From positions 558,001 through 622,000 of the forward strand of contig JAUHWH010000001.1 of the NCBI GenBank assembly GCA_030424715.1: DNA of 64,000 nt. The letters are read 5' to 3'. Origin of the DNA: Bdellovibrionia bacterium (GTDB lineage Bacteria; Bdellovibrionota; Bdellovibrionia; Bdellovibrionales; JAGQZY01). Each line of letters starts with the position of its first letter. The first letter of the stretch is position 1. The position numbers and the translations under genes are program-made. The notes beneath the pieces were generated by a model. The model was not told the origin of the DNA and did no database searches. It saw only the letters and a list, made by a program, of their open reading frames with translations. Shown piece by piece: positions 2,893 to 33,461 of this stretch.

Positions 2893-2896
2893 CAGC

Positions 2897-2925: not shown

Positions 2926-2981
2926 CGGCCTTTCCAGAAACTTCAGGACAGACGTACATTTAGGTCGTAAAGAGGTAAAAA

Positions 2982-3131
2982 ATGAAAAGAACGTATCAGC
3001 CAAAAAGAAAACGCCGCAAAACCAAACACGGTTTCCGTGCCCGAATGGCCACCAAAAGTGGACAAGATGTTATCAACAGACGTCGTGCTAAAGGGCGTAA
3101 AAGATTGGCAGTGGCAATTAGCGGTAAATAA
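2982..3131 (+). CDS. rpmH: 50S ribosomal protein L34
   Basis: Small, very basic protein of the large ribosomal subunit, 49 residues. It starts [18 protein letters not shown], the near-universal L34 beginning, and continues with the usual [10 protein letters not shown] and [10 protein letters not shown] segments. AGAGGT (2971-2976) serves as ribosome site. It is the first gene of the rpmH-rnpA-yidD-yidC-jag-mnmE-mnmG-rsmG run, a conserved origin-proximal order. The protein is in a different frame from, and unrelated to, a longer open frame overlapping it. Confidence 0.97.
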
Positions 3132-3134
3132 GTT

Positions 3135-3681: not shown

Positions 3682-3683
3682 TA

Positions 3684-5294: not shown

Positions 5295-5303
5295 GGAGGT
5301 CGT

Positions 5304-5837: not shown

Positions 5838-5838
5838 T

Positions 5839-7239
5839 ATGGTTCAATATAAAGACCTCTTGTCAGATACTATTTGTTCTCCAATCACGGCACCTGGTTA
5901 CTCCGGTGTCGCGGTTCTGAGAATCTCTGGCGACAAGGCATTTGAAGTGGCCAAAACCGTTTCAGACATCAAAACCACCACTCCAGAATCCCATCATGCC
6001 TACTTAGCCAATATTTTTGACAAAGAGGGTTCAAAGGTTGACCAAGTTCTTCTGACCTATTTTTCGAAAGGCCAATCCTTTACTGGAGATGAAGTTGTTG
6101 AGCTTTCGTGCCATGGCAACCCGTTGCTGATTAACGCTATTATGAAAAGCTGTTTAGAGGCCGGTTGTCGAACAGCTGAACGCGGTGAATTTTCTTTTCG
6201 TGCCTACTATAACGGGAAAATTGACCTCATCCAGGCTGAATCTATTCAACAATTGGTGACCTCAAACACAAAAGTTGGCTCCCAAGCTTTTCTTTCGCAG
6301 TTAGAAGGTCGGTTGTCTCAGGAGTTCAATAAAATTCAGGATCTTTTAATTCTGGGGATGGCCCACCTTGAGGCCTCTATTGACTTCGTAGAGCAAGATA
6401 TAGAGACGGCAGAATTGACTGAGGTGCAGGTTATCGTCGATCAAGTTAAAGAGTTAGTACAAGCCCTGCTCAACTCCTACAGCACTGGAAAAAGTCTGCA
6501 AGAATCCTGCAAAGTCGTGCTTCTAGGGCAACCGAATACCGGTAAATCAAGTTTGTTCAATCGGTTGGTCGCTGATGATCGTGCGATCGTTACCGAGATT
6601 CCTGGCACGACTCGAGATCTCATCACGGAACAAAGGTTTTTGGGTAACCATTCGTTAACCTTTGTCGACAGCGCGGGTCTTCGATCCACAGACGATCAAA
6701 TCGAGGTCATTGGAATCAATAAGGGCCTTGCGTCGGCCCGTGAATCCCAAATTATTTTATTTGTTTTAGATAGCAGCAACCCTGAGGGCGTAGAGTTTTT
6801 AAAGGAATGCCCATCGGATAAGACAATTCTTGTTCTGAATAAGGGGGACTTACTTGACAAAAATGTTCCGCAGGATTGTTTCAAAAATCAGACGCTCAAT
6901 AAACTTGGTATTGATTTACCCGAAGAGTCGGTAGCAATCGTTTCCTGTTTAACGGGAGATGGGCTCAATTCTTTGCTCGACATGATTGATAGACGGGTGA
7001 ACTCGCTGTTAAAAGTCGATGAGACAGCTTTAGTCACTCAAGCGAGGCACTATAATCATTTGTGTGATTTATCTGAGATCCTTGAAACCGCGAGTCTCCA
7101 GATTAAACAATCTGAGAGTCCAGACATTATTTCTCAGGAGCTTTTGATGGGTTTAACCGAGATCCACCAGCTTTTGGGAAAAGAGTATGATGACGAGGTT
7201 TTAGATAAGATTTTTAGCCAGTTCTGTATAGGGAAGTAG
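5839..7239 (+). CDS. mnmE: tRNA modification GTPase MnmE
   Basis: GTPase that, with MnmG, builds the 5-carboxymethylaminomethyl group on wobble uridine 34 of certain tRNAs. From ATG 5839 the protein has 466 residues, the family length. It shows the TrmE N-terminal domain (PGYSGVAVLRISG), the G1 loop GQPNTGKS (230-237), the GTTRD and DSAGL switch motifs, and the C-terminal FCIGK with the catalytic cysteine. Upstream in-frame ATGs at 5764 and 5812 lie inside the jag gene and add non-conserved residues. No strong ribosome site is seen at any of the three starts. mnmG follows six bases later. Confidence 0.95.
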   Translation: MVQYKDLLSDTICSPITAPGYSGVAVLRISGDKAFEVAKTVSDIKTTTPESHHAYLANIFDKEGSKVDQVLLTYFSKGQSFTGDEVVELSCHGNPLLINAIMKSCLEAGCRTAERGEFSFRAYYNGKIDLIQAESIQQLVTSNTKVGSQAFLSQLEGRLSQEFNKIQDLLILGMAHLEASIDFVEQDIETAELTEVQVIVDQVKELVQALLNSYSTGKSLQESCKVVLLGQPNTGKSSLFNRLVADDRAIVTEIPGTTRDLITEQRFLGNHSLTFVDSAGLRSTDDQIEVIGINKGLASARESQIILFVLDSSNPEGVEFLKECPSDKTILVLNKGDLLDKNVPQDCFKNQTLNKLGIDLPEESVAIVSCLTGDGLNSLLDMIDRRVNSLLKVDETALVTQARHYNHLCDLSEILETASLQIKQSESPDIISQELLMGLTEIHQLLGKEYDDEVLDKIFSQFCIGK

Positions 7240-7245
7240 AAAAAG

Positions 7246-9111
7246 ATGTCCGATCGTTTTGACAGTATTATAGTTGGGGCGGGGCATGCTGGTATTGAAG
7301 CCGCATTTGCCTGTGCCCGTAAAGGGTTGAAAACCCTTATTGTGACTTCCGATATATCTAAATCCGGTTTTATGAGCTGTAATCCTTCTATTGGTGGGCT
7401 CGGTAAAGGTCATATGGTTAAAGAGATTGATGCTTTGGGTGGCATCATGGGTTTAATGGCTGACAAGGTGACTATTCAGTTCAAAAAGCTGAACACTAAG
7501 AAAGGGCCAGCAGTTCGAGGAACCCGAGTCCAGTGTGACAAAGACCTTTACTGTAACGAGATGGTTAGTTTTTTAAAAGCCCAGGAAAACCTTATGCTTA
7601 TGGAGTCTGACGTCACCTCTTTGATTATTGAGGGCGAGGAAGTCAGGGGTGTGGTCCTTGGAGACGGATCCAGCGTACGGTCAAAAACGGTGATTATTAC
7701 CACAGGCACTTTCATGAATGGGGTCATGCATATTGGTGATAAAAAGATCACCGGAGGACGGGTTGGCGAAAAAGCCACCGTTGGTTTATCTGATCAATTA
7801 TTGGATCGAGGTTTTGAGGTCCTGCGGCTAAAGACTGGGACCCCTCCACGGCTTGAAAAGTCATCCATCGATTGGGACAAAACCAAACCTCAGTTTGGGG
7901 ACTCTAATTATCAACCTTTCAGCTTCAAGAGTCCAAGACAGTTAAATTTGCCCCAAATCGCATGTTATTTGACCAACACATCAGAAGAAACTCACGATAT
8001 TATCCGTAAAAATATTGATAAATCACCCATGTTCTCGGGACAAATTTCTGGTTTGGGCCCGCGCTATTGTCCAAGTATCGAAGACAAAATAACCCGCTTC
8101 TCTGAGAAGAGCTCTCATCAGACCTTTTTGGAGCAAGAGGGCTTACAATCGAATTCGATTTACCTCCAGGGAATATCGACAAGTCTGCCTGAGGAAGTTC
8201 AACTAGAATTTCTTAGAACGATTCCTGGTTTAGAAAATGTACTTATGATTCGGCCCGGTTACGCCGTCGAGTACGACTTTATTGTTCCAACAGAACTGGG
8301 CTTAACCCTTGAAACCAAAAAATTGAAGAACCTATTTTTGGCGGGGCAAATCAACGGAACCAGTGGTTACGAAGAGGCGGCTGGGCAAGGTTTGGTTGCC
8401 GGCGTGAACGCTGCAGCCAAGGTTTTGGATCAGAACGAATTTATTTTATCTCGAGATGAAGCTTACATTGGTGTGCTCGTTGATGACCTTGTTACCAAAG
8501 GCACAAAAGAGCCCTACCGCATGTTCACTTCTCGTGCTGAGCACCGTCTAGTTTTAAGAGAAGACAATAATATCGAGCGGTTGCACTCAAAGGCGAAATC
8601 CTTCGGTTTGCTTAGTGATGAACATATCGTTCTGGCGGAATCGATTTTGGCCGAAAGAGAGTCCCTTTTCTCTGAACTTGATGAACAAAAAATCAGTCCA
8701 ACTCAGCAATGTTTGGATCAGTTGAAGACACTCGGTACTAAGCCCATCAATAAGCAAATCACATTGGCCGACCTTCTACGCCGGTCTGAAATCAGGATAG
8801 AAGATCTCAAGATGTTTCATGAAGAGATATCGAGTGATCAATTTATCGTAGAGCCTGTAGAAATTAGGGTAAAATACCGAGGGTATATCGACCGACAAAA
8901 TGAATTTATCCGACAGTCAAAAAAAATGGAAAATATGAAAATACATCCTGAAATCGACTATTTTAAGATCTTGGGACTTTCCAGAGAAGAAATGGAAAAG
9001 CTTGAAAAGTTGCGTCCGAAAACCATTGCGCAGGCCCAAAGAATCAGCGGTGTGAATCCCTCTGCCATTCAAGCCATTCTAATGTACAGCCGCAGGGAGT
9101 TTGGGAAATGA
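7246..9111 (+). CDS. mnmG: tRNA uridine-34 modification FAD enzyme MnmG (GidA)
   Basis: FAD-dependent partner of MnmE in wobble-uridine modification. It has 621 residues. The N-terminal dinucleotide fold is [13 protein letters not shown], and the GidA signatures [12 protein letters not shown] and [12 protein letters not shown] (FAD region) are present. The C-terminal helical part contains [17 protein letters not shown]. The ATG follows the mnmE stop by six bases, and the TGA stop overlaps the rsmG start as ATGA. The mnmE-mnmG-rsmG-parA-parB order next to the origin is widely conserved. Confidence 0.96.
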
Positions 9112-18328: not shown

Positions 18329-18860
18329 GATCTGTTGCAACGGTTCGACTTTTACGTCTGGTATAAAATAGGGGCCGTTTAGGCTCCTTTTTTATTGAAT
18401 TGGGGGGAAGTCTTTTGGGGGTATGGTAAGCCGTGCTTTCGCAAAGGTCGTCTTATCATTCCTCACCCACCAAAAATAGTTATTGATAGCATAAGACATC
18501 CTTATGGAAAGGTGTCTCGCTTTTAAGCTGACATCCGAATTTGGCAAGAAAACCAAGATCCAAGACTCAAAAGCCGTTTTCTGAGATCAGATAGGTTTAA
18601 ATCACCTTAGAGCAAAGTACTTCTTTCAAAATCTCCTTATTACGGGCACTTGAATGTGGCCCTCATTTGGGCAAACTTTCTCTTATGGGCGCCATAAGTA
18701 ATTGGAAATACTAGCTGAATATCTTTCAGTGGTGTCAAATTCTACCATGTAACATTTACCCCAGTGGCAATTAGCATTGATCTTTTATCTCAAAAGAGAG
18801 ATTTTTGTTGTCTGATTTATTGGGATTAACGGGGGGGCACAAACATTAGGGGCCTTTATC
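18329..18860. other. Non-coding gap between the ATP synthase operon and the exported-protein block
   Basis: This 532-base gap holds the atpC terminator near its start and a second weak hairpin at 18494-18517 (AGACATC / GGTGTCT, then CGCTTTT). AGGGG lies about 11 bases before the next ATG as a ribosome site. I see no open frame, tRNA or known RNA motif. The promoter of the 18861 gene must lie here, but I could not pick a convincing one. Confidence 0.6.
18369..18393 (+). terminator. Intrinsic terminator of the ATP synthase operon
   Basis: Stem AGGGGCC / GGCTCCT (one G-U pair), loop of five, followed by TTTTTT. It is 41 bases after the atpC stop. Confidence 0.85.
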
Positions 18861-21800
18861 ATGAAACGAAGTTTCACCGTTGCCATTCCAGCAATGATCA
18901 TCTTGTTATTTTCATCATTGTTCTTTGCATCTTGTACATACGTCACACCGGAAGCTGAAAATCCTAATCCAGGGTTAGAGAAAGACAACGTAAAGTATCT
19001 CGTTACCGATGGTGTTCTCGCTCTTAAAAAAGAGGTCCTCGGTTACGAAACCAACCAACAAACCAATCAGGTAAAAGAACCTGTCGGAAAGCTTTGGCTT
19101 TGTGGCTGGGCGCCCGTTTCCAGCGGCGGTGGTGTTAAAGGTTGGGGCGGATTAACAAATACGCCTTACAACACTCGCCATTGTAATATGGAAATGCGCA
19201 TCTCTAAAGATGGTCGAAATCTTTTGGCAAAAAATGTGGATCTCAACTACCCCGGCGACTTTGAAAAATGGGATCTTCTTTTTACGATCCCCATCCTTCA
19301 ACATTACTTCTATGAAAAAGAAGTGGACTCAAGAGGCCGCGAGCTGAATCGTTACGCAAAAGTATCGGATCGAAAGAACTGGAAACTGGCTCCGATCATG
19401 GATCTTGACCTGAGAGGCATAAAGTTTGAAGACAAAACAAAAAGTCCAGAGGGGTTCTCTACAGTAGCGTCGATCCTGCAGGCAGCGGGAGGATCACTCA
19501 CGGATGTTTACGATATTGAAATATCGAAAGAGAACGATCAACAGTTTATTGGATTTACAGCCACAAGAACACACAGTTTCTACGGCTCTCTCATTCAAAA
19601 CGAATGGCGCTTTAACTTCCTCGAAATCAAAGAAAACCCCGGGTTCAAAAAAACGGCTTACAACACTCGTAGCGCCAAATACATGAACATCCTTCACGTT
19701 CTCGGGAATCAGCCAAATGGTGACCGTGCCGACGAAGTCAATTGGGCTGCCCATTGGGATGTGTCTGAGCCCGTTGAATTTTGCATTAACGGTTTTCCTG
19801 AAGACTGGCGTGGGTATCAAAACATCGGTCAAGATGTGATCGATGAGATGAACGCGGCCATGGAAAAAATCGGTGCCGTGAAAAAGGGCCAGAAGGCGTT
19901 TGTGGTGTCCACCAAAAAGCCCAAGTACCACTTTGACTTAAGGTGCCCAAGTATTTCGTGGGTGGATGATCCCATTCTCTCGTTCCGTGCCCCCTTGGGA
20001 ATTGGGTTAGTTAACACCAACGTCGCCACGGGCGAAATTCTTTGGGGTGGTGCTGTGATTTGGGGCGGTCTTATCGATCGCATTATCAACAGAGACAGCG
20101 AGTCAGCGGTAGACGCGATGGCCAATGCAACTCACAAAATGCTGCAAGACATTGATGGCCTAAAAAACAATCCCTACTTCGAAGACATCGGTGCACAATT
20201 GCAACTCAATAAGTGGTCTCGTGGTGCCCTTGGTTACAATAACCTTCAGACCCTAGTTGAAAAAACAATGGGTCAAAGAGAAGAAAGCACCTTTGACCAA
20301 GTGGCGCAATTTCGAGAAGAAACCCTTGCCCGACTCGACAAATTTGAGAAAGAGGAGAACCCCGAACAAAGAGAGGCCATGTTAAACAACTTGATTCAAG
20401 ACCTTCAAGTCGTAGAACGAATCAAGGACTTTTCGATTGATGGCCAGTCTATAGAGCCCCTTAGCTTGTCCGATTCTGATCTTGCCTTTGATGCACGATA
20501 CAATCCGACGGAACAAGAATTCATTGATGATTTGAATCGTTTTACGGGATTTGTAAAAAGCGTTTCCTATACTGGTGATGAGAAAACCAGCCTTGCCAAC
20601 GCCCAAGGACACATGGACATCGATCAGGCCACTCGCTTGGCCCGTGAATTTATCTCAACTCACGCCGAGCTACCCTTTGACTACGACAACCGTTTTGAAA
20701 ACCATTATGACGCCTGGGCCTCGGCCACAAGCTCGATGGCTGGTCTCGAGAAAGCCGCCGCTGCTTATTCGACAATCAAAAACGTCACGTTGCACGAACT
20801 CGGTCACGTGGTCGGGCTCGGTCACCAATTTGAAGGCAACCGCATGCCCGTTCGTGGCACCGTACCCGACAAAGTTTACGATGCTTTGGCGGCAGAGGTT
20901 CCGAATCGTCACAACTATAGCTCGATCATGGATTACCAGAGCGGTCATACTGAAGTGTCTTTACCGAAAGAAAAAGTAAAGATGCAGGTTCAAGATGAGC
21001 TTACTTTGGCATATCTCTATAATCAGCAGTACGCCACATACCGAGCGGGTGACGAAGATTGGACCTTTTTTACGGTCCGAGAAGACGGCATCATTCCCGT
21101 TGAGACGCCCATGAACGGAAACATGTATCCGGCTCGTTACATGCCCCAGTGTTCGGATCTCGATGCGCTCTTGGCATCAAGCCCCTACTGCCGCCGTTGG
21201 GACCGGGGTCACGATGCACCAACGATGGTCGAAGAAAATTTGAAAGAGTACACAGATTCTTTTATCTCACAACTGAATTCATTCACCGAAGCGACAGGAT
21301 CCAATCCTTACTTTGCTAAGTACCGATTGTGGGCCAGCACCTATCGCCTAATGAACTACAATCGTGCTTTCTACGATACCATGAGATATCATCTATCGAA
21401 CAACGACGTTTACCAAAGTGCTTTTCGAAAAATTAGAAACAGCGAAAGTGCGTTGTTGAGCTTTTCAAAAGCTTGTATCGACCCCACCCAAGCCACCGAT
21501 GATACCTGGGGTGTGGAGTTTGCGAAACTGGCCATCCAGCCACTTTATACGGAGGCAGGAGCCAACACTCTCGAAGAGCTTCAACGCGGACAGAGTCAGG
21601 CAAGTTACCAAGCTTTGTACAGTCAGTACAAGAGCATCGTCGGCAATACCAACACGCGGGACCTTGATGCCGATGGTTTTGATCGCCTTGAAGAAAAACT
21701 AAATGCTAATGGCCTTGCTTTCTCGGAGATGCAAAAACTGTGTCGAGCATCGAAGCGCTCTCTCGATGTAGCGAAACTGTTGTTGAGCCTTAAGGGCCCC

Positions 21801-22865
21801 GATCACCCGAAAATGAACTACGACACAGCAATCGTTCCGACGGGCTTACGAGGCGGAGAGGCAACTTCCGATTGGTCACGAGCTTTTGGTACCTACGAGC
21901 AGCTGGGACTACTCCCTCTGAAGATTGCTGCGCTCGATGTTTTGACCGCGACGGCTTCCACTTTTCAGTATGGTTGGTGGAATATTCCGAAGTATAAATT
22001 CAACGACCCCAACGATGGGAAGTTTGGTTACTTCGCGATGTACCCCGAAGAGTTCACTGACGTGGTTGGTACAGCGGTGAAAAATAATATGGGATTCGGC
22101 GGTACAAAACTGCAAGACGCTGCGACAATGAGTATTGCCAACCTCTATATGAATTACTTTTTGAGACGAACTTTTGTTTGGAGTAACGACAACCAGGCCC
22201 GTGGTTTTAATACCGATTATCTGACTGAGTTGAAAGCGCAAACGAAATTTCAAGTTGCGGTGAGTCCGGTGTTGTTGCAGTCTATCGATATCCCAGGTGA
22301 GCCGACCAATAAGCGTTTTGGATTTCGCCCCACGCTTTACAGCATGAGAACGGGAAAAACGACAGATTTGCCAGAAGCCTACCTGTTGCCCGAGAAAAAA
22401 GTGATCGTCCGAGGGAATGATTCTCAGATCATATTACCCATATCTAAACTTCGTTTTATGAGCCAGAATACGGCCTATGTATGGGCGTTGGAAGTCACAT
22501 ATGACAAAACCTCCTATGATGATCCTCTCCAAGGTTTTACTGTGAAGAATTCGATTTCAGAACTGACTACCCAAGAGCTTGATAAATGTATCGCGGGGGC
22601 TGCTGGCTTAGCGACCTTTTTTAATACAAACGAAGAGTTCACAGGCTTTCAGATCGATCCGGCCATTGCGACGGATCCCGATGCACAGACGAATTTCGAA
22701 ATCTCTCTGCAAGAGGCCTTCAAAGCCTATCAAAACAGAGAGGGGCAAACACCCACCCAGATTGGTTGTGAAGAATCTTTAAAAGGGGTTGGACTCGTCA
22801 CCTCGACGGCTCTTTCCTTGAATGGATTTATTCTTCCACAAGTCTTCGAGTACATAAAGAAATAA
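18861..22865 (+). CDS. Giant exported lipoprotein with metzincin-type zinc protease motif
   Basis: Unnamed 1,334-residue protein. The N-terminus MKRSFTVAIPAMIILLFSSL and FFASC (Cys25) looks like a lipoprotein signal. At residue 645 is HELGHVVGLGH, a complete HExxHxxGxxH zinc site (H645, E646, H649, H655). It is followed by SIMDY with M690 as the likely Met-turn, so a metzincin-like endopeptidase is well supported. The arrangement recalls large bacterial DUF4953-type zinc proteases, but I could not confirm that. A DLDADGFDRLEE stretch near residue 935 could bind calcium. The remaining roughly 1,000 residues match nothing I know. It is the first gene of a four-gene exported block; the next gene starts 11 bases after its stop. 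Probably anchored in the outer membrane. Confidence 0.85.
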   Translation: MKRSFTVAIPAMIILLFSSLFFASCTYVTPEAENPNPGLEKDNVKYLVTDGVLALKKEVLGYETNQQTNQVKEPVGKLWLCGWAPVSSGGGVKGWGGLTNTPYNTRHCNMEMRISKDGRNLLAKNVDLNYPGDFEKWDLLFTIPILQHYFYEKEVDSRGRELNRYAKVSDRKNWKLAPIMDLDLRGIKFEDKTKSPEGFSTVASILQAAGGSLTDVYDIEISKENDQQFIGFTATRTHSFYGSLIQNEWRFNFLEIKENPGFKKTAYNTRSAKYMNILHVLGNQPNGDRADEVNWAAHWDVSEPVEFCINGFPEDWRGYQNIGQDVIDEMNAAMEKIGAVKKGQKAFVVSTKKPKYHFDLRCPSISWVDDPILSFRAPLGIGLVNTNVATGEILWGGAVIWGGLIDRIINRDSESAVDAMANATHKMLQDIDGLKNNPYFEDIGAQLQLNKWSRGALGYNNLQTLVEKTMGQREESTFDQVAQFREETLARLDKFEKEENPEQREAMLNNLIQDLQVVERIKDFSIDGQSIEPLSLSDSDLAFDARYNPTEQEFIDDLNRFTGFVKSVSYTGDEKTSLANAQGHMDIDQATRLAREFISTHAELPFDYDNRFENHYDAWASATSSMAGLEKAAAAYSTIKNVTLHELGHVVGLGHQFEGNRMPVRGTVPDKVYDALAAEVPNRHNYSSIMDYQSGHTEVSLPKEKVKMQVQDELTLAYLYNQQYATYRAGDEDWTFFTVREDGIIPVETPMNGNMYPARYMPQCSDLDALLASSPYCRRWDRGHDAPTMVEENLKEYTDSFISQLNSFTEATGSNPYFAKYRLWASTYRLMNYNRAFYDTMRYHLSNNDVYQSAFRKIRNSESALLSFSKACIDPTQATDDTWGVEFAKLAIQPLYTEAGANTLEELQRGQSQASYQALYSQYKSIVGNTNTRDLDADGFDRLEEKLNANGLAFSEMQKLCRASKRSLDVAKLLLSLKGPDHPKMNYDTAIVPTGLRGGEATSDWSRAFGTYEQLGLLPLKIAALDVLTATASTFQYGWWNIPKYKFNDPNDGKFGYFAMYPEEFTDVVGTAVKNNMGFGGTKLQDAATMSIANLYMNYFLRRTFVWSNDNQARGFNTDYLTELKAQTKFQVAVSPVLLQSIDIPGEPTNKRFGFRPTLYSMRTGKTTDLPEAYLLPEKKVIVRGNDSQIILPISKLRFMSQNTAYVWALEVTYDKTSYDDPLQGFTVKNSISELTTQELDKCIAGAAGLATFFNTNEEFTGFQIDPAIATDPDAQTNFEISLQEAFKAYQNREGQTPTQIGCEESLKGVGLVTSTALSLNGFILPQVFEYIKK

Positions 22866-22876
22866 GGAGCAATGAA

Positions 22877-25800
22877 ATGTTAACAGCGAACAAAATAATA
22901 AATATTGTGTACGGGCTGATCATTGCTGCCACTGTCGCCAACTGCAGTCCTCGCAGCGCTGAACGCAAGCGAAGTTTCTCAGATGATGCCGTGAAGACGG
23001 CGACCCCCGAGAGCACCAATCTTAAAGCGCAAAAGAATGAACGCCTCGAGGCGGCTCTTTCTGATATCGAGCCTTTTCTGGTCAGCCAGATTACCGGACC
23101 TGACGATGCCATCGATCCAAACGGCTTGATGTCTAAAGTGATTCTTCCTCTGAAAGAAATCATCCTTAACGTAGACTCTCTCGCGGCTCCAGAAAACCGT
23201 TTTGCGAAAACAGACGAAGGGCGCTTTATCATGCCTCGTCTGGTGAGTCTTTTTAACCAAGCCTTGTTATTAGTTAACAAAACAGAACCAAGTCTTATTG
23301 CGGGAACCAATATAATCACCCAGTACAAACAAGTTTTGCTATGGGATTGTAGCGGTGCTTCGTTAGAGGGATCCTGCCAGTTTATCAAGTACTTCAGAAA
23401 AACGGATGGCATCAACATGGGCAAAATTGTGAAGCTCATGCATGACCAAGAAGGGACCTCTGACTATGAAAAGATGCGTCTTATCCGAGCGGGTCTTGAA
23501 GTCAAAAATCGGCGTTTAGATAGCTCACTACGTTTTATGCTCCTCGAAAGAATAGCCCAGTCATCGTTGCAAGGCGTAGACAACAAAGCGATCGACTACA
23601 ATCATGCTCGCTTTGTTCAGGAAGTAAACTTATTCGCAAACGTCCTCAATATCAGCGGTAGCGAAATTCAGTCCGACAATGGATACATCTCACTGATTGA
23701 GGCTCTAAACCCTTGGAAGCTTTCTCGTAACGTTGACGATGCGAAAAATCCAGCGATGTCTAACATAATTAAAATCGCCAGTGAAAAGCTCCTTTATAAA
23801 GAGGATGGTAGCCTTTCAGATCTTATCAAGAACGAAGTCATTCCATCGTTGCTGTACAAGCTTGGCGATGACTTTGAGCAAGGAGTTCTTTTCCAAAAGG
23901 CCAACCTTCGTGGCGAATGGAAGCCGGACTACGATGCTTATTTAGCGGCAAAGGCCGAAGACAAGCCCATGGTGCTTTCGGATCTACAAAAAGAACTGTT
24001 CCCCATTGTCGAAGAGTCTCTCGAAATTGAATTATATGGAGACGAGAGCAAGGGTATTTTAAAGACCCTTCTTTCCGACGTGTCTTTTGAAGAAGACTCT
24101 CTCGATGAATACTTCTATTTGGCCCACCAGGCTTTCTATGCCCACTTTAGTTTAGAAGATGCCACGGCTTTTTGGGGAGGAACTAAGAAAGACTCTTCAA
24201 GGCTAATGAATGAGCTTGAGAAGCTTCTGAAAGTCCAAATCGTTAATAACATCGTGTTGACAAACACTCGGATGAACAACTTTTATAACAGAAACGAAAA
24301 CACTAAATTGATTGAACTTTTGCGGGAGTCAGACAAAGAGGCCAGCAAGATTCGTAAAGCTTGGTCGAAAACAATTGTACGTGCTCAGACAGTGAAAAGC
24401 CTGATCACTCGAGTGATCAATCCGAACTCTCTTTCAGGAGAGGACCGGCGTGCTTACGATCGTATCAACTCATCGATCGATGCTTTGAAAAAGAACATCA
24501 AGTTTCTCGCCACCTATCCAAACATGTTTCCTTTGATGCATGTCATGGCGTCTTTAGATATGAAAGACTCCATTTCTTGGTGGGGACGAAAGTTTACCAT
24601 CGATAGCGCAACAATAATTAGTAATTTCTTTGCGGGTTATTTTCCGCCTTGGTTCAACTTCGGCAACGACAGTGACAGTTTGGACCCCGTAGAGATCGTT
24701 TACACTTATTATTACGCTCTGGTCACCCAGACATTTGAAACCTATTCAACGAGCTCCATTGTCAACTTTAGTCATGCCGACTTCTTTAAAGTGGTAGTAA
24801 AACGTCTGATCCTTGATGAAGAAGAAGATTTGGACGATAAGCGCAGGGCCCTTCTTAAAGATATCGAGGACTACAAGAACAACGCCGTTGCCCTAAAGAG
24901 AATGTGTGATGAAGAGGCGAATCTTCAGAGACAAGAAAAGCAAGAGCTCGAGAAACTGAAAGAATCTCTTGGCGAAGACTTCGATTGGTACGAAGTTATG
25001 AAAAACGCTGGTGTCATGAAGCGTCGACTGCAGGTGAAAAATCAGTTTGGTTTCGTGGACATGAGCTATATGCCCTACGACGGCACGAATAACAAGACAG
25101 ACAAAGTGGGACGTTACCTACATGAGCTTTACTCCAGCAATGTGTTGAATGTGATTTCTAAAATGCGCACGAGTTTTCCTCGCAAGAGTATTGTCGCAGA
25201 GACCATTGTTGAAGTGTTTAAGTCTACGAAGGGTGGCGAGCAGTCCGAGATTGATAAAATTGTTGAAGATCAGTTTTCCGAGTATAATCGTCTAAAGTCG
25301 GAATACATCAAAATTTATAACGACGCGGAAAAAGACTTTAGAAGCTGTGACTGGCTGTTCTTAGCGAGAGATCGTGACATCAGACATATGTTGGTTTTTC
25401 GAGAGGTTGAGTATCTTGGTGCTTTGTTTGATGAGGTTTGGGAGGTTCTTTCACCACTCACAAAAGAACAGCGGGCCAATCTCTCGTCATCGGACGAGGT
25501 TTACCAACAGCTTGAAGAAATTAAGAAGAAGTACTCTACCTACACCCAAGATGACTTCTACACCCAAGACCGTCTGAAGCCGGGGTTTCCTGCCGAGTAT
25601 CAAGAGCGCTTTGGCTATAATACAATTTCTCCGTCTCGTTTAACTTCGTTTAAGATGGACACTGCGGCGCGAGTCTATGCCTATTTCCAAGAATTGTTCC
25701 CTGGGGAATACAGCATCTCCATGCCGGCTGATTTTAAAACAACTGGCATTTACGCGGAGGCGAGTCCCGCTTTAGTGTACTTCGATTGGGAAAAGTCGAA

Positions 25801-26683
25801 AGAAGCCTCAAAAGAAGAGTTTATAAAGTCGGGAATCAAAGCTCTGGCCGATCAAATGACATGGGCTGGAGGTCCACCTTCAGTTGCCACGATTGTCAAT
25901 AAAGGCGAAATCCTTGTGAATCTCTTTAAGTTGGGAACTTTAACTAAAGATGTTGATGTTGACTGTGCCAGCGAGTCTCTTTCAGAAGAGATGCGTGCCG
26001 AGAACTGCGTAAGAGTGAGTGCAAAAGAAATTATTGAGCACTTTAAGAAAGCCATTCACTTCTTGAATCTCGATGATAGAGATTTGGAGTTGCTCGATCT
26101 GCTTGGCAAAGAGAACAAGTACGCACAATCTCAGTACGAAGATTTCATTAAGAGACAAGACGAGCACAGACTCTATTCTTTCTACGATATGATTTTTCGA
26201 AGAATCTATTCGGACAGTCGAGTCAAAGATTCAGAGGTTATTTGGTTCAAAGACACCTTGGTGAGTTATGTGAACTCGGTTCACAAAATTCAGGGTTCGA
26301 CTTTTATCTTTCCGTATAGTGATCGCCTCAATGAAATCTTTGTGGAGAAGTATTCCGGTTGGTTAGAGCAATACTATAAACAAACTGAAGAGTTTTTAAA
26401 CGAAGTAAAAGTTCAATTGGCCGAAGGTGTGGAGCCATTCCAATTTAAATACCGAACAGACCGTTCTCACCGAATTGGTTTGGAGTCGAACGATTGGAGC
26501 ACTAACAAAAACGTCAGCCTTGAACCCTTGGTTAGTGATCTGATTTACGGGAAATTTGAGGGCTTCAGTCAGCAGATGAACAACGACACCAGTGGATATT
26601 TCTCTCCGATTGTGTGGAAATACACTCGAGAAATCCAACAACTCGCTAAGCCCATCGCCGATGATAGCCAGGGAGATCAGTAA
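22877..26683 (+). CDS. Giant exported lipoprotein, paralogue A
   Basis: Unrecognised 1,268-residue protein. A hydrophobic signal ends at Cys23 followed by SPRS, a probable lipoprotein although the -1 residue (Asn) is unusual. It is rich in charged helical segments, including a likely coiled coil near residues 650-715 (EEANLQRQEKQELEKLKESL). It is homologous to the gene at 27597: both share CSP(R/K)S after the signal, a paired-Cys region, a (R)NRR helix, a NPW/APW motif, WW followed by F.ID and PWFNF, and a C..LFIA(H/R)D segment. AAGGAG precedes the ATG. GGGAGA near its end serves the next gene. The function is unknown; no catalytic motif was seen. Confidence 0.8.
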   Translation: MLTANKIINIVYGLIIAATVANCSPRSAERKRSFSDDAVKTATPESTNLKAQKNERLEAALSDIEPFLVSQITGPDDAIDPNGLMSKVILPLKEIILNVDSLAAPENRFAKTDEGRFIMPRLVSLFNQALLLVNKTEPSLIAGTNIITQYKQVLLWDCSGASLEGSCQFIKYFRKTDGINMGKIVKLMHDQEGTSDYEKMRLIRAGLEVKNRRLDSSLRFMLLERIAQSSLQGVDNKAIDYNHARFVQEVNLFANVLNISGSEIQSDNGYISLIEALNPWKLSRNVDDAKNPAMSNIIKIASEKLLYKEDGSLSDLIKNEVIPSLLYKLGDDFEQGVLFQKANLRGEWKPDYDAYLAAKAEDKPMVLSDLQKELFPIVEESLEIELYGDESKGILKTLLSDVSFEEDSLDEYFYLAHQAFYAHFSLEDATAFWGGTKKDSSRLMNELEKLLKVQIVNNIVLTNTRMNNFYNRNENTKLIELLRESDKEASKIRKAWSKTIVRAQTVKSLITRVINPNSLSGEDRRAYDRINSSIDALKKNIKFLATYPNMFPLMHVMASLDMKDSISWWGRKFTIDSATIISNFFAGYFPPWFNFGNDSDSLDPVEIVYTYYYALVTQTFETYSTSSIVNFSHADFFKVVVKRLILDEEEDLDDKRRALLKDIEDYKNNAVALKRMCDEEANLQRQEKQELEKLKESLGEDFDWYEVMKNAGVMKRRLQVKNQFGFVDMSYMPYDGTNNKTDKVGRYLHELYSSNVLNVISKMRTSFPRKSIVAETIVEVFKSTKGGEQSEIDKIVEDQFSEYNRLKSEYIKIYNDAEKDFRSCDWLFLARDRDIRHMLVFREVEYLGALFDEVWEVLSPLTKEQRANLSSSDEVYQQLEEIKKKYSTYTQDDFYTQDRLKPGFPAEYQERFGYNTISPSRLTSFKMDTAARVYAYFQELFPGEYSISMPADFKTTGIYAEASPALVYFDWEKSKEASKEEFIKSGIKALADQMTWAGGPPSVATIVNKGEILVNLFKLGTLTKDVDVDCASESLSEEMRAENCVRVSAKEIIEHFKKAIHFLNLDDRDLELLDLLGKENKYAQSQYEDFIKRQDEHRLYSFYDMIFRRIYSDSRVKDSEVIWFKDTLVSYVNSVHKIQGSTFIFPYSDRLNEIFVEKYSGWLEQYYKQTEEFLNEVKVQLAEGVEPFQFKYRTDRSHRIGLESNDWSTNKNVSLEPLVSDLIYGKFEGFSQQMNNDTSGYFSPIVWKYTREIQQLAKPIADDSQGDQ

Positions 26684-27607
26684 GTGAAATCTGCCGCCGT
26701 TTGTCTTTTTGGCTTGATTTTGGCTTTCAATACGTCATTGGCCGTTGCTGCTCCGGAGCTGAAGTCCGACAGTAAGGCCACTGATGAGGATAGAGAAGAG
26801 GCAAAAAAGAAAAAAATTGGTGTGGACCAATCCGACTTTATGCCCGATGCGAACAGCTTCGGTTTTATCGTTTCCTACTCTGCGGCTTACAACGATTTAG
26901 AACAGGTTGATAACAAGACGGTTGGCCACAGAGTGAATTTTGCTGGGACTTACAGTTTTGACAAACATTGGAGTGCTTATTCTGCTGTGGGTGCGAGCCA
27001 CGAATCTTTTGGAACCAATATCGTGCGTGATAACGACAACGATCAGTTTCACAGGATCTCTAATCTCAATCTTGGCGTCGTTTATACCAAAAACAATCCG
27101 TTGAGTTTTATTAGCAGAAGCTCCAACACTTTAAACGTTGGAGCTCCAGTGAGCGAGCGGAGCCGAATCGATAAACACATTGCCAATATCTCTTTGACAA
27201 ACTTTATGCAAACACACAACTGGAAGAAGTTTTCTTTGTTTAATCGCTTCACGGGAAACTTTTTGTGGAACACCCAGCGGTTTACTATTTTTGATGATCC
27301 CCAATCCAATAGCGAAGGCGATCAACTCAATCGAGACTGGCTGGTTTCGAATAGTCTGGGTGTAACTTACATGATTCTTCCGCGATTGGGCGCCCGCTTT
27401 AACTATCGGGTGGACATGGTTCGTCTCGTCGATGGTAGCTGGAATATGAGCTTTGGCGACAATCTGTCGATTTTTACGAATATCAGTGGTTTTCAAATTT
27501 TCTTAACGACCATTAATAATTCTTATCTAGAAAACGAGAGAATTGATCTTGGTTACTACGACAAATTCCGTCGAGTTTACCTAGGGGGGGTTACCTATGC
27601 CTTTTAA
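26684..27607 (+). CDS. Predicted outer-membrane beta-barrel protein
   Basis: A 307-residue exported protein starting with GTG directly after the previous stop, so translation is coupled. The signal peptide ends near AVAAPEL. A charged segment (DEDREEAKKKKIG) is followed by alternating polar/hydrophobic strands with many aromatic and Gly residues, such as GFIVSYSAAYNDL and SLGVTYMILPRLGARFNY. It ends GGVTYAF, and a C-terminal Phe is the usual signal for barrel assembly by BamA. The segments suggest roughly ten to twelve strands, but I did not compute this. It is sandwiched between the two paralogous giant lipoproteins, which suggests they act together at the outer membrane. Confidence 0.75.
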   Translation: MKSAAVCLFGLILAFNTSLAVAAPELKSDSKATDEDREEAKKKKIGVDQSDFMPDANSFGFIVSYSAAYNDLEQVDNKTVGHRVNFAGTYSFDKHWSAYSAVGASHESFGTNIVRDNDNDQFHRISNLNLGVVYTKNNPLSFISRSSNTLNVGAPVSERSRIDKHIANISLTNFMQTHNWKKFSLFNRFTGNFLWNTQRFTIFDDPQSNSEGDQLNRDWLVSNSLGVTYMILPRLGARFNYRVDMVRLVDGSWNMSFGDNLSIFTNISGFQIFLTTINNSYLENERIDLGYYDKFRRVYLGGVTYAF

Positions 27608-30600
27608 ATCAGTACTGGCAACGCTCTTTCTTATGCTTGGTGTTGGCTGTAGTCCCAAGAGTATACCAAACCATCAGACGGCGATCCCCGATGAAGTCAC
27701 TCAGTCGGCCGAACCCGATGTTGTAAAAGAGCAATCCGATCAACGGGTCTCTTCTGTGCGATATGGGGAAGACCACTTTCGAATGCAGGCGCTGATCACT
27801 GATGGCACGGTCAGTTCCTTGACCGAGGCACTGTCTTTTTTGGAAAGTCAAATTTACGGGCCGAAAGCCTCCGACAAGAGCTTCTATACTAGTCCGGAAT
27901 ACAGCGGATACTTAGACCTTTATGTTCAAGTGTCTCGCGCCATCAAAAAAGGCTATAGCGAAGAAAGTGACCTTTACCAAAAATGGAGTTTGTCGGAAAC
28001 GCGCTTTTATGATTTTTTCTTAGCAGGTTGTGTCGGGGCCACGGAGTCACTCTGCGAACGCTTAGAGCACGCCTTACTCAAAGAAGCTTCGACGGCACAG
28101 CTAATTATTGATATTGCCGATAAACAAGAAGACCCCCTCAAGCGCCTGGCTCTCTTAGGCGCGGCTTTTGACGTATCTAATCGTCGCAGAAATCCAAGGC
28201 TTGAAAGTCTTTATCTCGATATGGGCCTCCAGGTATTGGGAGCAGTCGAAGAGGCAAAGATAGATCTACAGAGCGATAAAACGTCGCTCCACTTCGTCAA
28301 TGTTCTAAGCTTGATTAACCAGATCTCATGGAAAAACCCGACAGAGTCGACAATCGCCCGCTTTCAAGCCATTGCCCCATGGAACGTCGAGGGGAATTCG
28401 ACGAAACTCCTCAACGAACTCCGAAAAAAGTTGGTTCCGTTTTTGCCCATCTACTCCCGTGAAAGTGTTGCGATAAAGGAGGCCACCCGGGCTGTTGTTA
28501 AAAAGAGAATCGAAGGGCTAGTTGCGGGTGGTCGAACCCTTTCCGATTATCCGGCTTTCGAAAACGTCGAGATACGCTCCTTGTTGGCCCTCGATCCCGA
28601 GGTGGCTTTTCTTGCTGCGGAATTGTATTTTCAAAATGTCTCGTTAGTGGCTGCGAACAGCTATTTAGAAAATATTGTAGATAAGAGTCGGTTTGTTGAT
28701 CAAGCTTTCAATGCGGCTAAAACATTGGTGCGCTGGGATGTTGCCCACCTCAGTATTGAGAGCACGGAACGCCTGAGTCAGAAGTTCAGTGAGCAGGATG
28801 CAAAAACCAATGCCTTTTTTCAAGAGACCTTAGAGTGGAGTAAAACCCTAACCCCTCTATGGAATGAATTTCACACCGTGCGTCTTTGGACGATTAAGTC
28901 GTTCATTGAGGCAAACGCTCGTCATGGAGCTGCTAGCACCGATGCGTCGGCCCGCGAGTTCTTCAACGCCATCAATCGAAATATCATGAAAACAACTGTT
29001 TTTCCAAACATGCTAGCCTTTGCTTTTCACATGGCTAAGACAGAGTGGTCGGCGGAGATTCGAATTTGGTGGTTTGTCTTCAATATCGACACAACCATTA
29101 TGATGGATTACTTCCTTACCGGACAATATCGGTACCCCTGGTTTAATTTCACCAACTTGAAGCAAGGTGCAGGAGGTTGGCGCCCCCAAGAGAAGACCTC
29201 GTTATTTCGTTCTGAGTTGTACGATAGCTTTTACTACTTCTTTGCCACGAAAACCCATGCAGTCTATGGAATCAATGCTGATGAGCTGATCACCTTGGCC
29301 AGCGAAACTCTTATCAAAAAGAGACGAAGCCGTTTTGATGAATTGATAGAACAATACAGACAGCGTTACTTCCCCGATAACACTGCACCCAGTGTTTTTG
29401 TAAAATGGTGTGAGGGTATCAAAAGTGGCGAACCACAAAAAGAAACACTACTGTTCTATGAGACGGACGAGTATCTCTCGCCGCACAACCGAGAGCTTGT
29501 TTCTGATTACACCTATGGAGTACGAGATGTCTTTTACGCCGATGCTTTAGGCATACCCCATAACGGCGGTGATACGGGCCTGACGTTTATCGATCGCTAT
29601 CGCCTCGAGCTTAGAGAAATCGACCATTATCTCAACCAATATGTGGCTATCGCGAAGCGCCTGAAACAGAGTCATCCGCAGTTGGCTATTGGTAATTTCG
29701 TCGAATCTGAACGCAAACTTGCTGAGTTTGATCTTTTCAATATGAAGTTTATGGGAACCCAGAAGTACGTTGCCGACAAAATTGGCGATTGCCTTTTCAT
29801 CGCTCATGACGAAACTCGCCGCAGAACGAAGCAGAGCGTTTTTGCTCAGCACACCTATAATACGAAGATCGTTCACCCCCTTATGAAAGCCGTGAAAGAG
29901 AAAGAGATATCGTTAACAGAAGCCAATGATGTGATTCAACAGTTTCACAAGAACCAACCCGGTATTTTTGACAAAATTGAGGCGAGCAATTCCGGGATAC
30001 CCTACTATGTCGTCCACAAAGTTGGCTTTATGTTGCGAAATCGTCTGTTTCTCACAGAAGGGCGGGTGTTTGACCATCCCGTCACAGGAACAGTGACTAT
30101 AGAGCCTATTGTTGGCTCGCACCTTAGTATTGCTGTGCCTTCGAATCTGCTAGAGGACAATGACAACCCCTTTCTTGGTACCAAAAATGAAACGGAAACC
30201 GTTTATAGTGTGAGTTACGAGGAGGAGGCCGAGGAATTTGGTCAGTCTGTTCTTTACCGAACGACGGACCCGGATAGAGAAGAATCGTTTAGTAAAAAGT
30301 TTACTGAGTGGGATAAGCAGGATGCCGAAAAATACGCGGAGTACTTTCGGTACGTGACCCAGTATGAAGTGATGATGCTTCTTATGGGAGATTATAAGTA
30401 TTTGGACGTAACCGCCCCTGGGTGTGATGTCATAAACCCGTCTGAGCTCGACGACTCTTGTATTTTAACGGCAAAGCCAGACATGTCCAATGTGATCGAC
30501 GTGATTCGACAATCAATTTTTGCCTATGTTCTCACGGAAGAAGACAAAGAGTATTTCCGCCTTAAAGGGGGGCAAGGATGGACTAGCCAGGATGCCCTTC

Positions 30601-31187
30601 ATCACGTATTAAAGTTCGACCCCTTCCGCCCCCTCGATTATCAGACTCGGGCTTTGCCCTTTAAGGAGTTAGCGGGTGCTTTTGATTTTACTTATTCGTT
30701 GATGAGAGAGGATTTTCTTGGCACAAACTTCGCGTCGGAGTGGGAGATCGAGGCAAACAAGGCCACGGATCGTCCACCGAGTTACGACTGTGTCGTAAAC
30801 CGGGATGGCTGCAATTGGGGAAGTGAAAAGCTACGAGCTCAGGAGTTCTTTTGGGCGCGGGGTAAAAAAGCTCGTCCAATTTTCAACTATGACACCGCAA
30901 TTGTTCGAGATGACTATAATCACGTTCGTAGCGAAGTGAAGAAAAAGATAGGGCACCTTCAAAACTTAGAAAATAACCGCTTTAAATACCTAGAGGAGCT
31001 GAAAAAGGGCCACTACGACGCAGATTTTTTTGATATTAACATGAATTTGCTCGACAGACCTTCTCGTCTGATTCCTTTAAGTCAGCGTTTTTTAAATAAC
31101 GACCGCGTTTACGAAAAGTTCTTTGTGGAAGAGACAGAAGGTTTCTTCGACAGTGAGAAGGACTGGTCCAGTTATGTTATTCAATAG
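27597..31187 (+). CDS. Giant exported lipoprotein, paralogue B
   Basis: Unrecognised 1,196-residue protein whose ATG overlaps the end of the barrel gene by 11 bases. The signal FLMLGVGC ends at Cys18, followed by SPKS. It is clearly related to the gene at 22877: shared features in the same order include GC/C spacing, the NRR helix, APW, IWWFVFNIDTTIM, YPWFNF, GDCLFIAHDE, and a late DV...C...C segment. It differs enough to be an old duplication. It also holds NYDTAIV (from residue 1097), found as well in the metalloprotease (from residue 986). No known domain or catalytic motif was seen. A strong terminator follows, ending the block. Confidence 0.8.
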   Translation: MPFKSVLATLFLMLGVGCSPKSIPNHQTAIPDEVTQSAEPDVVKEQSDQRVSSVRYGEDHFRMQALITDGTVSSLTEALSFLESQIYGPKASDKSFYTSPEYSGYLDLYVQVSRAIKKGYSEESDLYQKWSLSETRFYDFFLAGCVGATESLCERLEHALLKEASTAQLIIDIADKQEDPLKRLALLGAAFDVSNRRRNPRLESLYLDMGLQVLGAVEEAKIDLQSDKTSLHFVNVLSLINQISWKNPTESTIARFQAIAPWNVEGNSTKLLNELRKKLVPFLPIYSRESVAIKEATRAVVKKRIEGLVAGGRTLSDYPAFENVEIRSLLALDPEVAFLAAELYFQNVSLVAANSYLENIVDKSRFVDQAFNAAKTLVRWDVAHLSIESTERLSQKFSEQDAKTNAFFQETLEWSKTLTPLWNEFHTVRLWTIKSFIEANARHGAASTDASAREFFNAINRNIMKTTVFPNMLAFAFHMAKTEWSAEIRIWWFVFNIDTTIMMDYFLTGQYRYPWFNFTNLKQGAGGWRPQEKTSLFRSELYDSFYYFFATKTHAVYGINADELITLASETLIKKRRSRFDELIEQYRQRYFPDNTAPSVFVKWCEGIKSGEPQKETLLFYETDEYLSPHNRELVSDYTYGVRDVFYADALGIPHNGGDTGLTFIDRYRLELREIDHYLNQYVAIAKRLKQSHPQLAIGNFVESERKLAEFDLFNMKFMGTQKYVADKIGDCLFIAHDETRRRTKQSVFAQHTYNTKIVHPLMKAVKEKEISLTEANDVIQQFHKNQPGIFDKIEASNSGIPYYVVHKVGFMLRNRLFLTEGRVFDHPVTGTVTIEPIVGSHLSIAVPSNLLEDNDNPFLGTKNETETVYSVSYEEEAEEFGQSVLYRTTDPDREESFSKKFTEWDKQDAEKYAEYFRYVTQYEVMMLLMGDYKYLDVTAPGCDVINPSELDDSCILTAKPDMSNVIDVIRQSIFAYVLTEEDKEYFRLKGGQGWTSQDALHHVLKFDPFRPLDYQTRALPFKELAGAFDFTYSLMREDFLGTNFASEWEIEANKATDRPPSYDCVVNRDGCNWGSEKLRAQEFFWARGKKARPIFNYDTAIVRDDYNHVRSEVKKKIGHLQNLENNRFKYLEELKKGHYDADFFDINMNLLDRPSRLIPLSQRFLNNDRVYEKFFVEETEGFFDSEKDWSSYVIQ

Positions 31188-31214
31188 TCAACGGTCAGTT
31201 GACGTACAGCACGG

Positions 31215-31243
31215 GCCCGGCAATGATTGTCGGGCTTTTTTTT
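31215..31243 (+). terminator. Intrinsic terminator of the exported-protein block
   Basis: Stem GCCCGGC / GTCGGGC (one G-U pair) with a seven-base loop, followed by eight T residues, 28 bases after the stop of the last giant lipoprotein gene. Confidence 0.88.
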
Positions 31244-31306: not shown

Positions 31307-31873
31307 GTGGTATCAAAAGTTGTTCAAAATGGCACCCGTTTGGCGATTCACGGTCGCGGTCTGCTTTATCTTGTGGAGATCAACCTTCACCTCTCAAGGG
31401 TTGAGGGTAATCTGGAGATTTTCATGACAGGAAAGCTTCGAGTGGGCCCTCTTAAGTCGACTTGTGAGGCCCACGCTCGATACGAGATGAAACCGGCCAA
31501 GGCCGGAGTTGTGTTGCAGAGTTTTGAAATTCAGGCGCCCCGTTTGAGCTTCAAAGAAACTTATGTCCGCGATACTGATCAATCCTTGTTTTTTAGCAAG
31601 GGCGCAGAGCAAGGTCAGATTCCACTGCCACCGGCGAGCCATGTGATTGACCCACTTCTTCTGGTTTACTGTTTGTACGAGAATACCAAGCTCGAAAATG
31701 GCCGTGTCGTTGGAGGCGGAAAGCTTCGAGAGCTGACATTCGAAGGGAGCGTTGGTGAAGGCTGCTTGTTGCTCGCTGGACAGCAGGCTCTAAGTTGGAC
31801 CTCCAACGATAAGAACAAGACTCTAAGGATACCAAAGCTGAAAATGGAATTACAACTTAAAGAGCCCGGTTGA
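31307..31873 (+). CDS. Hypothetical protein, about 190 residues, start codon unclear
   Basis: I do not recognise this protein. It has no signal peptide and no membrane segment. It contains beta-like stretches (RLAIHGRGLLYLVEINLHL, LRELTFEGSVGEGCLLLAG) and three cysteines. GTG at 31307 is the first standard start, giving 188 residues, but the good ribosome site AAGGAGAG (31281-31288) is 18 bases away. That site is ideally placed for ATT at 31295 or CTG at 31298 in the same frame, so a rare start is possible. It is convergent with the GH3 gene; the stops are seven bases apart. It may have its own promoter after the terminator. Confidence 0.6.
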   Translation: MVSKVVQNGTRLAIHGRGLLYLVEINLHLSRVEGNLEIFMTGKLRVGPLKSTCEAHARYEMKPAKAGVVLQSFEIQAPRLSFKETYVRDTDQSLFFSKGAEQGQIPLPPASHVIDPLLLVYCLYENTKLENGRVVGGGKLRELTFEGSVGEGCLLLAGQQALSWTSNDKNKTLRIPKLKMELQLKEPG

Positions 31874-31880: not shown

Positions 31881-33461
31881 TCAATTGACAGTTTTAGCGG
31901 GCTTTCTGGTGCTTTCTTCGGTTTTCGTCTTCTGTAAGTGAAAGCCGGCAAAACTCCCCAGCCTTGGGTGGTGAGAGTGGACATTAATAACTTTTCTATA
32001 GGCCTCTTCATGCTTTAAAAAAATCTGGTTGCTGGAATTGACGACCACTATTTTCTTCTTTATGGAAGCTGGAGCCGAGCGCAGAATCTTTGCCGTCACG
32101 GGTCCACTGAGGTGATAGATAATGGCATCGCTCTTTGCGTAGGGTTTCCAATCGCGGAACCCTTTGAGATGGTGAAGATTGCTTTTTTGTTGTTTTTTGT
32201 AGGAGGTGAGAAACCGCCATGAATAGCTGAAAACATCAATGTTCTGGTTGGCCAGACTCAACTCAGGGGCCTGGTTGGCAAAGACCTCATGAAAAATTTT
32301 ATCATAGGTTTGCTTTAAAGGAATATTAGCAATGGACCGTCTCAGGGATGTCGTTGGTGTCTTTTTATAGAACTGAGCTTTGAAGCGCAGCAAGCGCTCA
32401 AGGCTTTCGTTCAATCGTTGTTGAGAGATCCGTCCGTCTTTTACCGCTTTTATAACAGCCGATACTGCTTGCTTCTGGACACGATAGTTCCAGCCCACCA
32501 TCACCAGGTCATTTCCGGCAAGAATTGCTTTTACGGCTCTCTCTCCTACGGAAAGCTGACTCAGTTTCGCGCCCCCCATCTGGATATCATCAGTCATTAG
32601 AATACCATCAAAACCGAGGCCAGAGCGTAATACATTCTTCAGTAATAATGGTGAGAAACTGGCTGGAGTGCGGCTCGGATCGATCAACGGATAAGAGATG
32701 TGAGACGCCATGATCGCAAATGGAATGCGATTGTTTTGCATTTCTTTATAGGGAGCGATGTCGTTAAACAGAAGTTCGGTGAGAGTGACTTGTTTGTAAG
32801 GTGTTTTGAGGTGAGAGTCAGTTTTCACACCACCGTGACCGGGAAAGTGTTTCGCTGTGGGTAGAATACCGGCGTCGATGAGTCCTTTGGAAAACGCAGT
32901 GGACATCTGGTTAACGATCTCTTTTTGGTCGCTGAATGATCGGTTACCGAGAAAGTCAGAAAAATTAGCGTTGGAAATGTCGACCACCGGTGCAAGGTTC
33001 ATGTTGAAGCCCAGGGCCGTCATCAGTTGCCCTGTTACAAACCCAGCGTCTTGGACAAGCGGCGCATTGTCGGTGAGGGCAAGAGTTCTCGCACTCGGGA
33101 GAGAGGGAGATGTTTTGATCCGAATCACCCGCCCGCCCTCTTGGTCGACGGCAATAAGAAGCGGAACTTTAGAGTTTTTGAGGGATTGCGATTGAGCCTT
33201 GATATTGAGATCTCTCACTTGAACCAGTGTTTTAATATTACGTCCGAAGATAATAATGGCTCCCGGATACAGATTCTCAAGTTGCCTTTTTAAGGACTGG
33301 TTAAACTGGGAGCCGGTGAATCCAAAAATGAACAATTGCCCAACCTTTTTCTCCAATGGCATTTCTTGGATCAATTTTTCAATCGATTTATCGCGATCAA
33401 AGCCGAAGCTACTGGATGGACTGAGCAACAGAATAGACAAAACAAAGAAGATATTTTTCAT
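31881..33461 (-). CDS. Secreted GH3 glycosidase, beta-N-acetylhexosaminidase-like
   Basis: Probably cleaves N-acetylglucosamine from peptidoglycan fragments or related glycans. The N-terminus (NIFFVLSILLLSPSSSFG) is a signal peptide, so the enzyme is periplasmic or secreted, unlike cytoplasmic NagZ. The GH3 barrel runs to about residue 360, with AVDQEGGRV, KHFPGHG (204-210), the DSH dyad (D215, H217) and the nucleophile motif TDD (290-292). The protein has 526 residues, whereas NagZ has about 340. The extra 160 or so residues at the C-terminus include a LAGFHL-like end and resemble no domain I can name. It lies 57 bases downstream of mfd on the same strand. Confidence 0.88.
   Translation of the reverse strand: MKNIFFVLSILLLSPSSSFGFDRDKSIEKLIQEMPLEKKVGQLFIFGFTGSQFNQSLKRQLENLYPGAIIIFGRNIKTLVQVRDLNIKAQSQSLKNSKVPLLIAVDQEGGRVIRIKTSPSLPSARTLALTDNAPLVQDAGFVTGQLMTALGFNMNLAPVVDISNANFSDFLGNRSFSDQKEIVNQMSTAFSKGLIDAGILPTAKHFPGHGGVKTDSHLKTPYKQVTLTELLFNDIAPYKEMQNNRIPFAIMASHISYPLIDPSRTPASFSPLLLKNVLRSGLGFDGILMTDDIQMGGAKLSQLSVGERAVKAILAGNDLVMVGWNYRVQKQAVSAVIKAVKDGRISQQRLNESLERLLRFKAQFYKKTPTTSLRRSIANIPLKQTYDKIFHEVFANQAPELSLANQNIDVFSYSWRFLTSYKKQQKSNLHHLKGFRDWKPYAKSDAIIYHLSGPVTAKILRSAPASIKKKIVVVNSSNQIFLKHEEAYRKVINVHSHHPRLGSFAGFHLQKTKTEESTRKPAKTVN

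Follow-up and report, generated by a model that had tools for sequence, protein, structure and literature searches.

Do four genes for exported proteins that stand in a row behind the atp operon of a Bdellovibrionia bacterium encode the parts of one machine, and if they do, what could such a machine be doing at the outer membrane? The question is raised by a window of 64,000 nucleotides, i.e., positions 558,001 to 622,000 of contig JAUHWH010000001.1 (GenBank assembly GCA_030424715.1), in which the genes, here called A, B, C, and D, are all read from the forward strand. An earlier reading of this DNA, made from the letters alone and referred to below as the original prediction, proposed a surface complex of a protease, two giant lipoproteins, and a barrel.

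Layout of the cassette and its protein families

Successive ORF calls in the block A-B-C-D are spaced by +11, 0, and -11 bases (Table 1), and by its sequence the block is a tight operon with its own terminator, which ranks best among the 28 terminators found in the region. Upstream lies the atp operon, whose last gene, atpC, ends at 18328 and carries a terminator of its own; downstream of D come a small ORF (orf188, 31307-31873), a nagZ-like gene (31881-33461), and then mfd on the reverse strand. The sizes, spacing, export signals, and terminator given in the original prediction were correct at every point checked. Elsewhere in the window (44419-46728), a 770-amino acid exported-looking protein ending in Phe is encoded after nuo-type genes.

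Table 1. Features of the four-gene cassette, in window positions.
Feature	Position	Strand	Description
Leader region	18329-18860	+	atpC terminator at 18370-18388, then ~470 bases; presumed location of the cassette promoter
Gene A	18861-22865	+	1334-aa metzincin lipoprotein, by sequence a divergent member of the DUF4953 (PF16313) met-zincin superfamily
Lipobox cysteine C25 of A	18933-18935	+	Invariant in 21 homologues
N-terminal beta domain of A, residues 56-257	19026-19631	+	Calycin/lipocalin-like in the predicted model, weak match
Zinc-binding motif HExxHxxGxxH of A, residues 645-655	20793-20825	+	HELGHVVGLGH; metal ligands invariant
Met-turn SIMDY of A, residues 688-692	20922-20936	+	M690 and Y692 invariant
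Gene B	22877-26683	+	1268-aa lipoprotein; paralogue of D; no known family
Gene C	26684-27607	+	307 aa, GTG start, end ...GGVTYAF; predicted outer-membrane beta-barrel; family otherwise found beside DUF4953 metzincins
Gene D	27597-31187	+	1196-aa lipoprotein; model mostly helical, no clear structural match
Intrinsic terminator	31213-31237	+	11 pairs, 6 of them G-C, then TTTTTT

By motif and predicted fold, the product of A belongs to the metzincin clan, and proteolysis is predicted from both. H645, E646, H649, G652, H655, and M690 are invariant in an alignment of 21 homologues, and the zinc ligands of the family stay invariant across 21-25 homologues; the metzincin assignment in the original prediction is thus borne out by a zinc site that is intact throughout and by a Met-turn whose methionine never changes. 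The window's A reaches 15.3 bits against the Pfam model DUF4953 (PF16313), for which the gathering cut-off is 24.2 bits, 20 of the 21 A proteins match the same model at E ≤0.1 (best 5e-10), and a paralogue of A elsewhere in the window's own genome scores above the cut-off. The zinc site is common to A and the DUF4953 met-zincin lipoproteins; A differs from them in its score below the cut-off and in having B and D alongside.

In the predicted model of A (residues 56-1255, 25 sequences; pLDDT 73.9, pTM 0.75), the catalytic part aligns best with ADAM10 (6be6; Z 7.5, 173 residues, rmsd 4.3) and also with ADAM17 and the fragilysins (Z 5.7-6.1 for the latter). All of these Z values are below 8, i.e., middling; it is mainly the invariant motif that carries the metzincin assignment. 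What sets A apart from its best structural matches (ADAM10, ADAM17, and Bacteroides fragilis fragilysin; Z 5.7-7.5) is that it is a bacterial lipoprotein, that its N-terminal domain is of beta type, that a long insertion is modelled with low confidence, and that its C-terminal part is large and helical. The remainder of the model gives weak calycin-like matches in the N-terminal part and weak helical-repeat matches in the C-terminal part, and a Foldseek search with the model of A or of D returned nothing at E 0.001 or better. Please note two peculiarities among the relatives: at L134:7682-10930, L142:7622-10528, L143:6150-9074, and L156:6375-9221, Asn or Ser replaces the Gly of the HExxHxxGxxH motif (HEFGHNLNLRHNF and similar), and at L071:9698-13530 the A gene lies in two adjoining frames, by a frameshift or an assembly error.

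B and D are 23% identical over 390 residues (BLASTP, E = 5e-12), and their sequences fall into two groups in a tree, with a support of 0.987 for the split; judged from this alignment and tree, they belong to one lipoprotein family that split into two lineages long ago. Like C25 of A, the lipobox cysteines C23 of B and C18 of D are invariant in homologues, and conserved cysteines are present in B and D. The predicted model of D (42 sequences) is mostly helical, with a mean pLDDT of 81.4 and a pTM of 0.75. A resemblance of D to karyopherin-type or helical-repeat proteins (Z up to 9.0) was dropped, this being the level expected for any helical protein, and a relation of A to B/D was rejected, the profiles being unrelated in profile comparison. 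Searches of B and D against Pfam, NCBIfam, and PDB sequences gave nothing convincing, B alone, used in a genome-wide scan, retrieved no relative, and none of 35 B/D members matched the SusD family at the sequence level, fold aside.

C has a signal peptide and a C-terminal Phe, and the profile of its family matches OmpX chains (8qpw) weakly, with E = 7e-5 over 86 positions; the assignment of C as an outer-membrane beta-barrel is supported by these features. A simple strand count on C gives 14 loose peaks and is unreliable. No match to DUF560, the Slam family, was found in 30 C-family members at E ≤0.1, and the 307-residue C has no Pfam match to the SusC-type TonB-dependent barrels (~100 kDa).

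Co-inheritance of the four genes

In a sample of 291 Bdellovibrionota genomes, long matches to A occur in 16 (best E per genome ≤1e-45; next genome, 3e-10). Strong matches to the B/D profile occur in the same 16 and in no others (E ≤1e-110; next, 8e-9), and these 16 also hold the strong matches to the C profile (E ≤1.2e-30; next, 1e-6). Two 16-genome sets would match exactly with a probability of about 1e-26 under the assumption, which does not hold, that genomes are independent. The carriers (G000, G014, G036, G043, G053, G125, G129, G191, G197, G199, G227, G231, G233, G239, G257, and G281) span six families (f1, f2, f3, f9, f17, and f27) and are interspersed with relatives that are without the genes.

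Gene order is equally constant. A is followed by B and then D at every A locus on a contig long enough, with or without C. Thirteen complete cassettes, carried by 12 of the 16 genomes, have C between B and D, as does a 14th cassette, KLAP46, in which A runs off the contig end. C precedes A in one cassette, L036, the second that the genome of the window contains. No barrel is linked in seven A-B-D cassettes, and the four sampled genomes with barrel-less cassettes (G053, G125, G129, and G197) all have C elsewhere; C is therefore possibly shared, or dispensable for B/D. In the remaining genomes among the 16, the genes are split over contig ends. The A of this C-A-B-D cassette (L036:6545-18891, G000:C13) shares only 25-28% identity with that of the window. 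G197 has three cassettes without a linked barrel, and its C-family barrel lies apart, beside a 506-amino acid lipoprotein (L123:8521-11384, G197:C11).

The three large proteins also diverge in step. Over 22 cassettes the tree-distance correlations are 0.88 for A-B, 0.84 for A-D, and 0.87 for B-D, and a single one of the 144 ways to reshuffle cassettes inside their genomes fits as well as the true pairing, probably the one that exchanges two sister cassettes of G125. The window's genus is represented in the sample by one more genome, G097, where atpC, orf188, and nagZ follow one another directly with no cassette at the site, and from this clean empty site we conclude that the cassette was gained or lost whole here. 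By the same token orf188 was rejected as a fifth cassette gene: it adjoins atpC in the cassette-free site, i.e., it is a flanking gene.

As read from distribution, gene order, and trees, A-B-C-D is a conserved, co-inherited unit whose proteins co-diverged. The original prediction had named rare co-occurrence of the four genes as the outcome that would speak against one unit, and the synteny search found the opposite. A scan with the A profile over 84,980 bacterial and archaeal species, among which the window's own genome may have been left out, found 27 loci, all of them in metagenome assemblies that bear the name of Bdellovibrionota or of one of its groups. As matched by the lengths of their contigs, 14 of the 15 other A-carrying genomes were recovered in the scan, which indicates good sensitivity for close relatives; distant versions elsewhere may have been missed.

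The barrel-metzincin pair beyond the cassette

The A profile reaches the DUF4953 superfamily in 225 of the 291 genomes, and at distant A-like loci a barrel-like gene of 250-360 amino acids lies beside the protease. Some of these earlier loci had been chosen for a weak C match, and the pattern was therefore retested on 20 further loci, selected only from the list of proteases, using barrel profiles that had been trained on the earlier ones; L181 is cut by a contig end, leaving 19 that could be evaluated. A barrel-family gene directly adjoins the protease, on the same strand and within 70 bases, at 16 of these 19. At the other three, one small gene intervenes (L180), the barrel is 1.6 kb off (L177), or there is none (L170). 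Elsewhere in the test loci, not one of 181 ORFs matches the barrel profiles.

The neighboring barrels appear related to C: their profile matches the C family with 99% probability over 235 columns, as compared with 1.3% or less for 11 other secreted proteins of similar size that served as the control. Taken singly, the neighboring barrels score from 96% down to below 1% against the C family, the divergent ones depending on the profile. The combined barrel profile matches 208 of the 291 genomes. The window's genome itself has four C-type barrels, each beside a superfamily metzincin (the window cassette, L036, L133, and L134). The pair is also seen outside the phylum, in Gammaproteobacteria, where two Vibrio plasmid records carry a DUF4953-type lipoprotein with a barrel-family gene just upstream: in L187 (pair at 2802-7642) the barrel has 279 amino acids and matches at E 1e-34, and in L186, a V. 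parahaemolyticus record (pair at 2768-7783), an interruption splits the barrel frame into two ORFs. With the window's own A as the query, a search of plasmids gave no match.

Judged from these neighborhoods, the older and most constant association is that of barrel and metzincin, nearly phylum-wide in Bdellovibrionota, and B/D is a later add-on to it, present in a minority of genomes (16 of 291). The surface complex of the original prediction is partly supported, in that the four genes form a conserved, co-inherited unit; its giant lipoproteins on or in the barrel find no support in the form proposed, the oldest association being barrel plus metzincin. A separate triad is found at L134, L142, L143, L145, L146, and L156, where a lipoprotein of 650-790 amino acids accompanies a DUF4953 metzincin and a C-family barrel. 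These lipoproteins were considered as relatives of B/D and rejected as such, since they form one family of their own with no detectable relation.

Possible function and its alternatives

There are precedents for machines of the outer membrane in which a barrel, lipoproteins, and an enzyme are united, i.e., the utilisomes (PMC7618045), and for barrels paired with a lipoprotein of their own, i.e., Slam (PMC5449769). By membership, as far as sequence comparison tells, the cassette is neither. It is like the SusCD utilisomes of Bacteroidetes (PMC7618045) in that a barrel, accessory lipoproteins, and a degrading enzyme are encoded together, the outer-membrane assembly being proposed here from the genes. 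It differs from them in that C is small (~300 amino acids) and not a SusC-type TonB-dependent transporter, that B and D have no detectable sequence relation to SusD, and that its enzyme is a protease. The likeness to Slam (PMC5449769) lies in an outer-membrane barrel gene that adjoins its own lipoprotein gene, whereas C is a smaller barrel, does not match DUF560, and has a protease of more than 900 residues as its partner. Our literature search, with most subscription papers outside its reach, found no paper on this cassette, DUF4953, or DUF5117, in line with the earlier statement that no described system of this composition is known.

Tentatively, and with a confidence a little short of even, we propose that the four gene products work together as one outer-membrane proteolytic complex. 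C would be the fixed partner of A in the outer membrane, either as an anchor or as a channel for products (transport is a guess), and A, held by its lipid anchor, would cut proteins at the cell surface or beyond it as an ADAM/fragilysin-like protease. B and D would build a large helical scaffold around the A-C pair that captures or presents the substrate, and different cassettes in one genome may serve different substrates. Such a complex would act like a protein-degrading utilisome without being a SusCD utilisome. The assembly in the outer membrane, its outward orientation, and the origin of the substrates from outside are what we infer. We place this outward proteolytic complex first for two reasons: the cassettes occur in duplicate and patchily and diverge fast, as suits parts exposed to a changing environment, and the barrel neighborhood fits anchoring or product uptake.

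The strongest rival makes C a dedicated display channel which, like Slam, moves A (in the cassettes also B and D) to the surface or holds it there, the protease being cargo rather than a functional partner. It draws on the near one-to-one neighborhood of barrel and lipoprotein, phylum-wide and in Vibrio, and on the finding that about 52% of Slam genes have a lipobox gene next to them (PMC5449769). However, with ~280-300 residues C could hardly accommodate the N-terminal part of Slam, DUF560 is not matched, and seven cassettes are without a linked barrel. We regard such a channel as unlikely, if a serious contender, and it could hold together with the outward proteolytic complex. Less probable again is a complex facing inward, in which A trims or clears outer-membrane proteins in maintenance or maturation, C is a membrane partner or a substrate, and B and D are periplasmic scaffolds. 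Lipoproteins can face the periplasm by default, the conserved cysteines of B/D fit either side of the membrane, and a core pair that is nearly phylum-wide is what a housekeeping role would lead one to expect, but up to three B/D cassettes per genome, patchy gain and loss, and fast divergence suit a role facing the environment better.

The original prediction had found prey attachment or invasion plausible, and an exported, multi-protein, protease-bearing cassette in a predator-related lineage does invite that thought. A prey-specific role is weakened by the presence of the core pair in most Bdellovibrionota and on Vibrio plasmids; moreover, full-length A and B/D are absent from every sampled genome of g10, the presumed genus Bdellovibrio with many complete genomes of 3-4 Mb, and all named records matching the A profile are metagenome assemblies. 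We consider it distinctly improbable. That the four genes are chance neighbors with separate jobs is hardly credible, being contradicted by the synteny result, i.e., the identical 16-genome distribution, the shared order across six families, and the congruent trees.

Going beyond the outward proteolytic complex itself, it is possible, and we hold this with more reserve, that we are looking at a class of proteolytic machine of the outer membrane not described before. Its core of barrel and metzincin, found almost throughout Bdellovibrionota and also in Vibrio, would in some lineages have grown to a complex of ~450 kDa (if one copy each) with two giant helical lipoproteins, and it may degrade external proteins or pass lipoproteins or peptides across the outer membrane. 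In Bdellovibrionota, predators among them, the digestion of proteins and their import across the cell's own outer membrane are poorly known, and the phylum-wide two-gene core is a specific, testable candidate for a machine. A Pfam family of unknown function, DUF4953, is now linked to a barrel partner covered by no curated family, and three protein families, i.e., B/D, the C barrels, and the partner lipoprotein of 650-790 amino acids, become available for the annotation of a large and mostly uncultured phylum.
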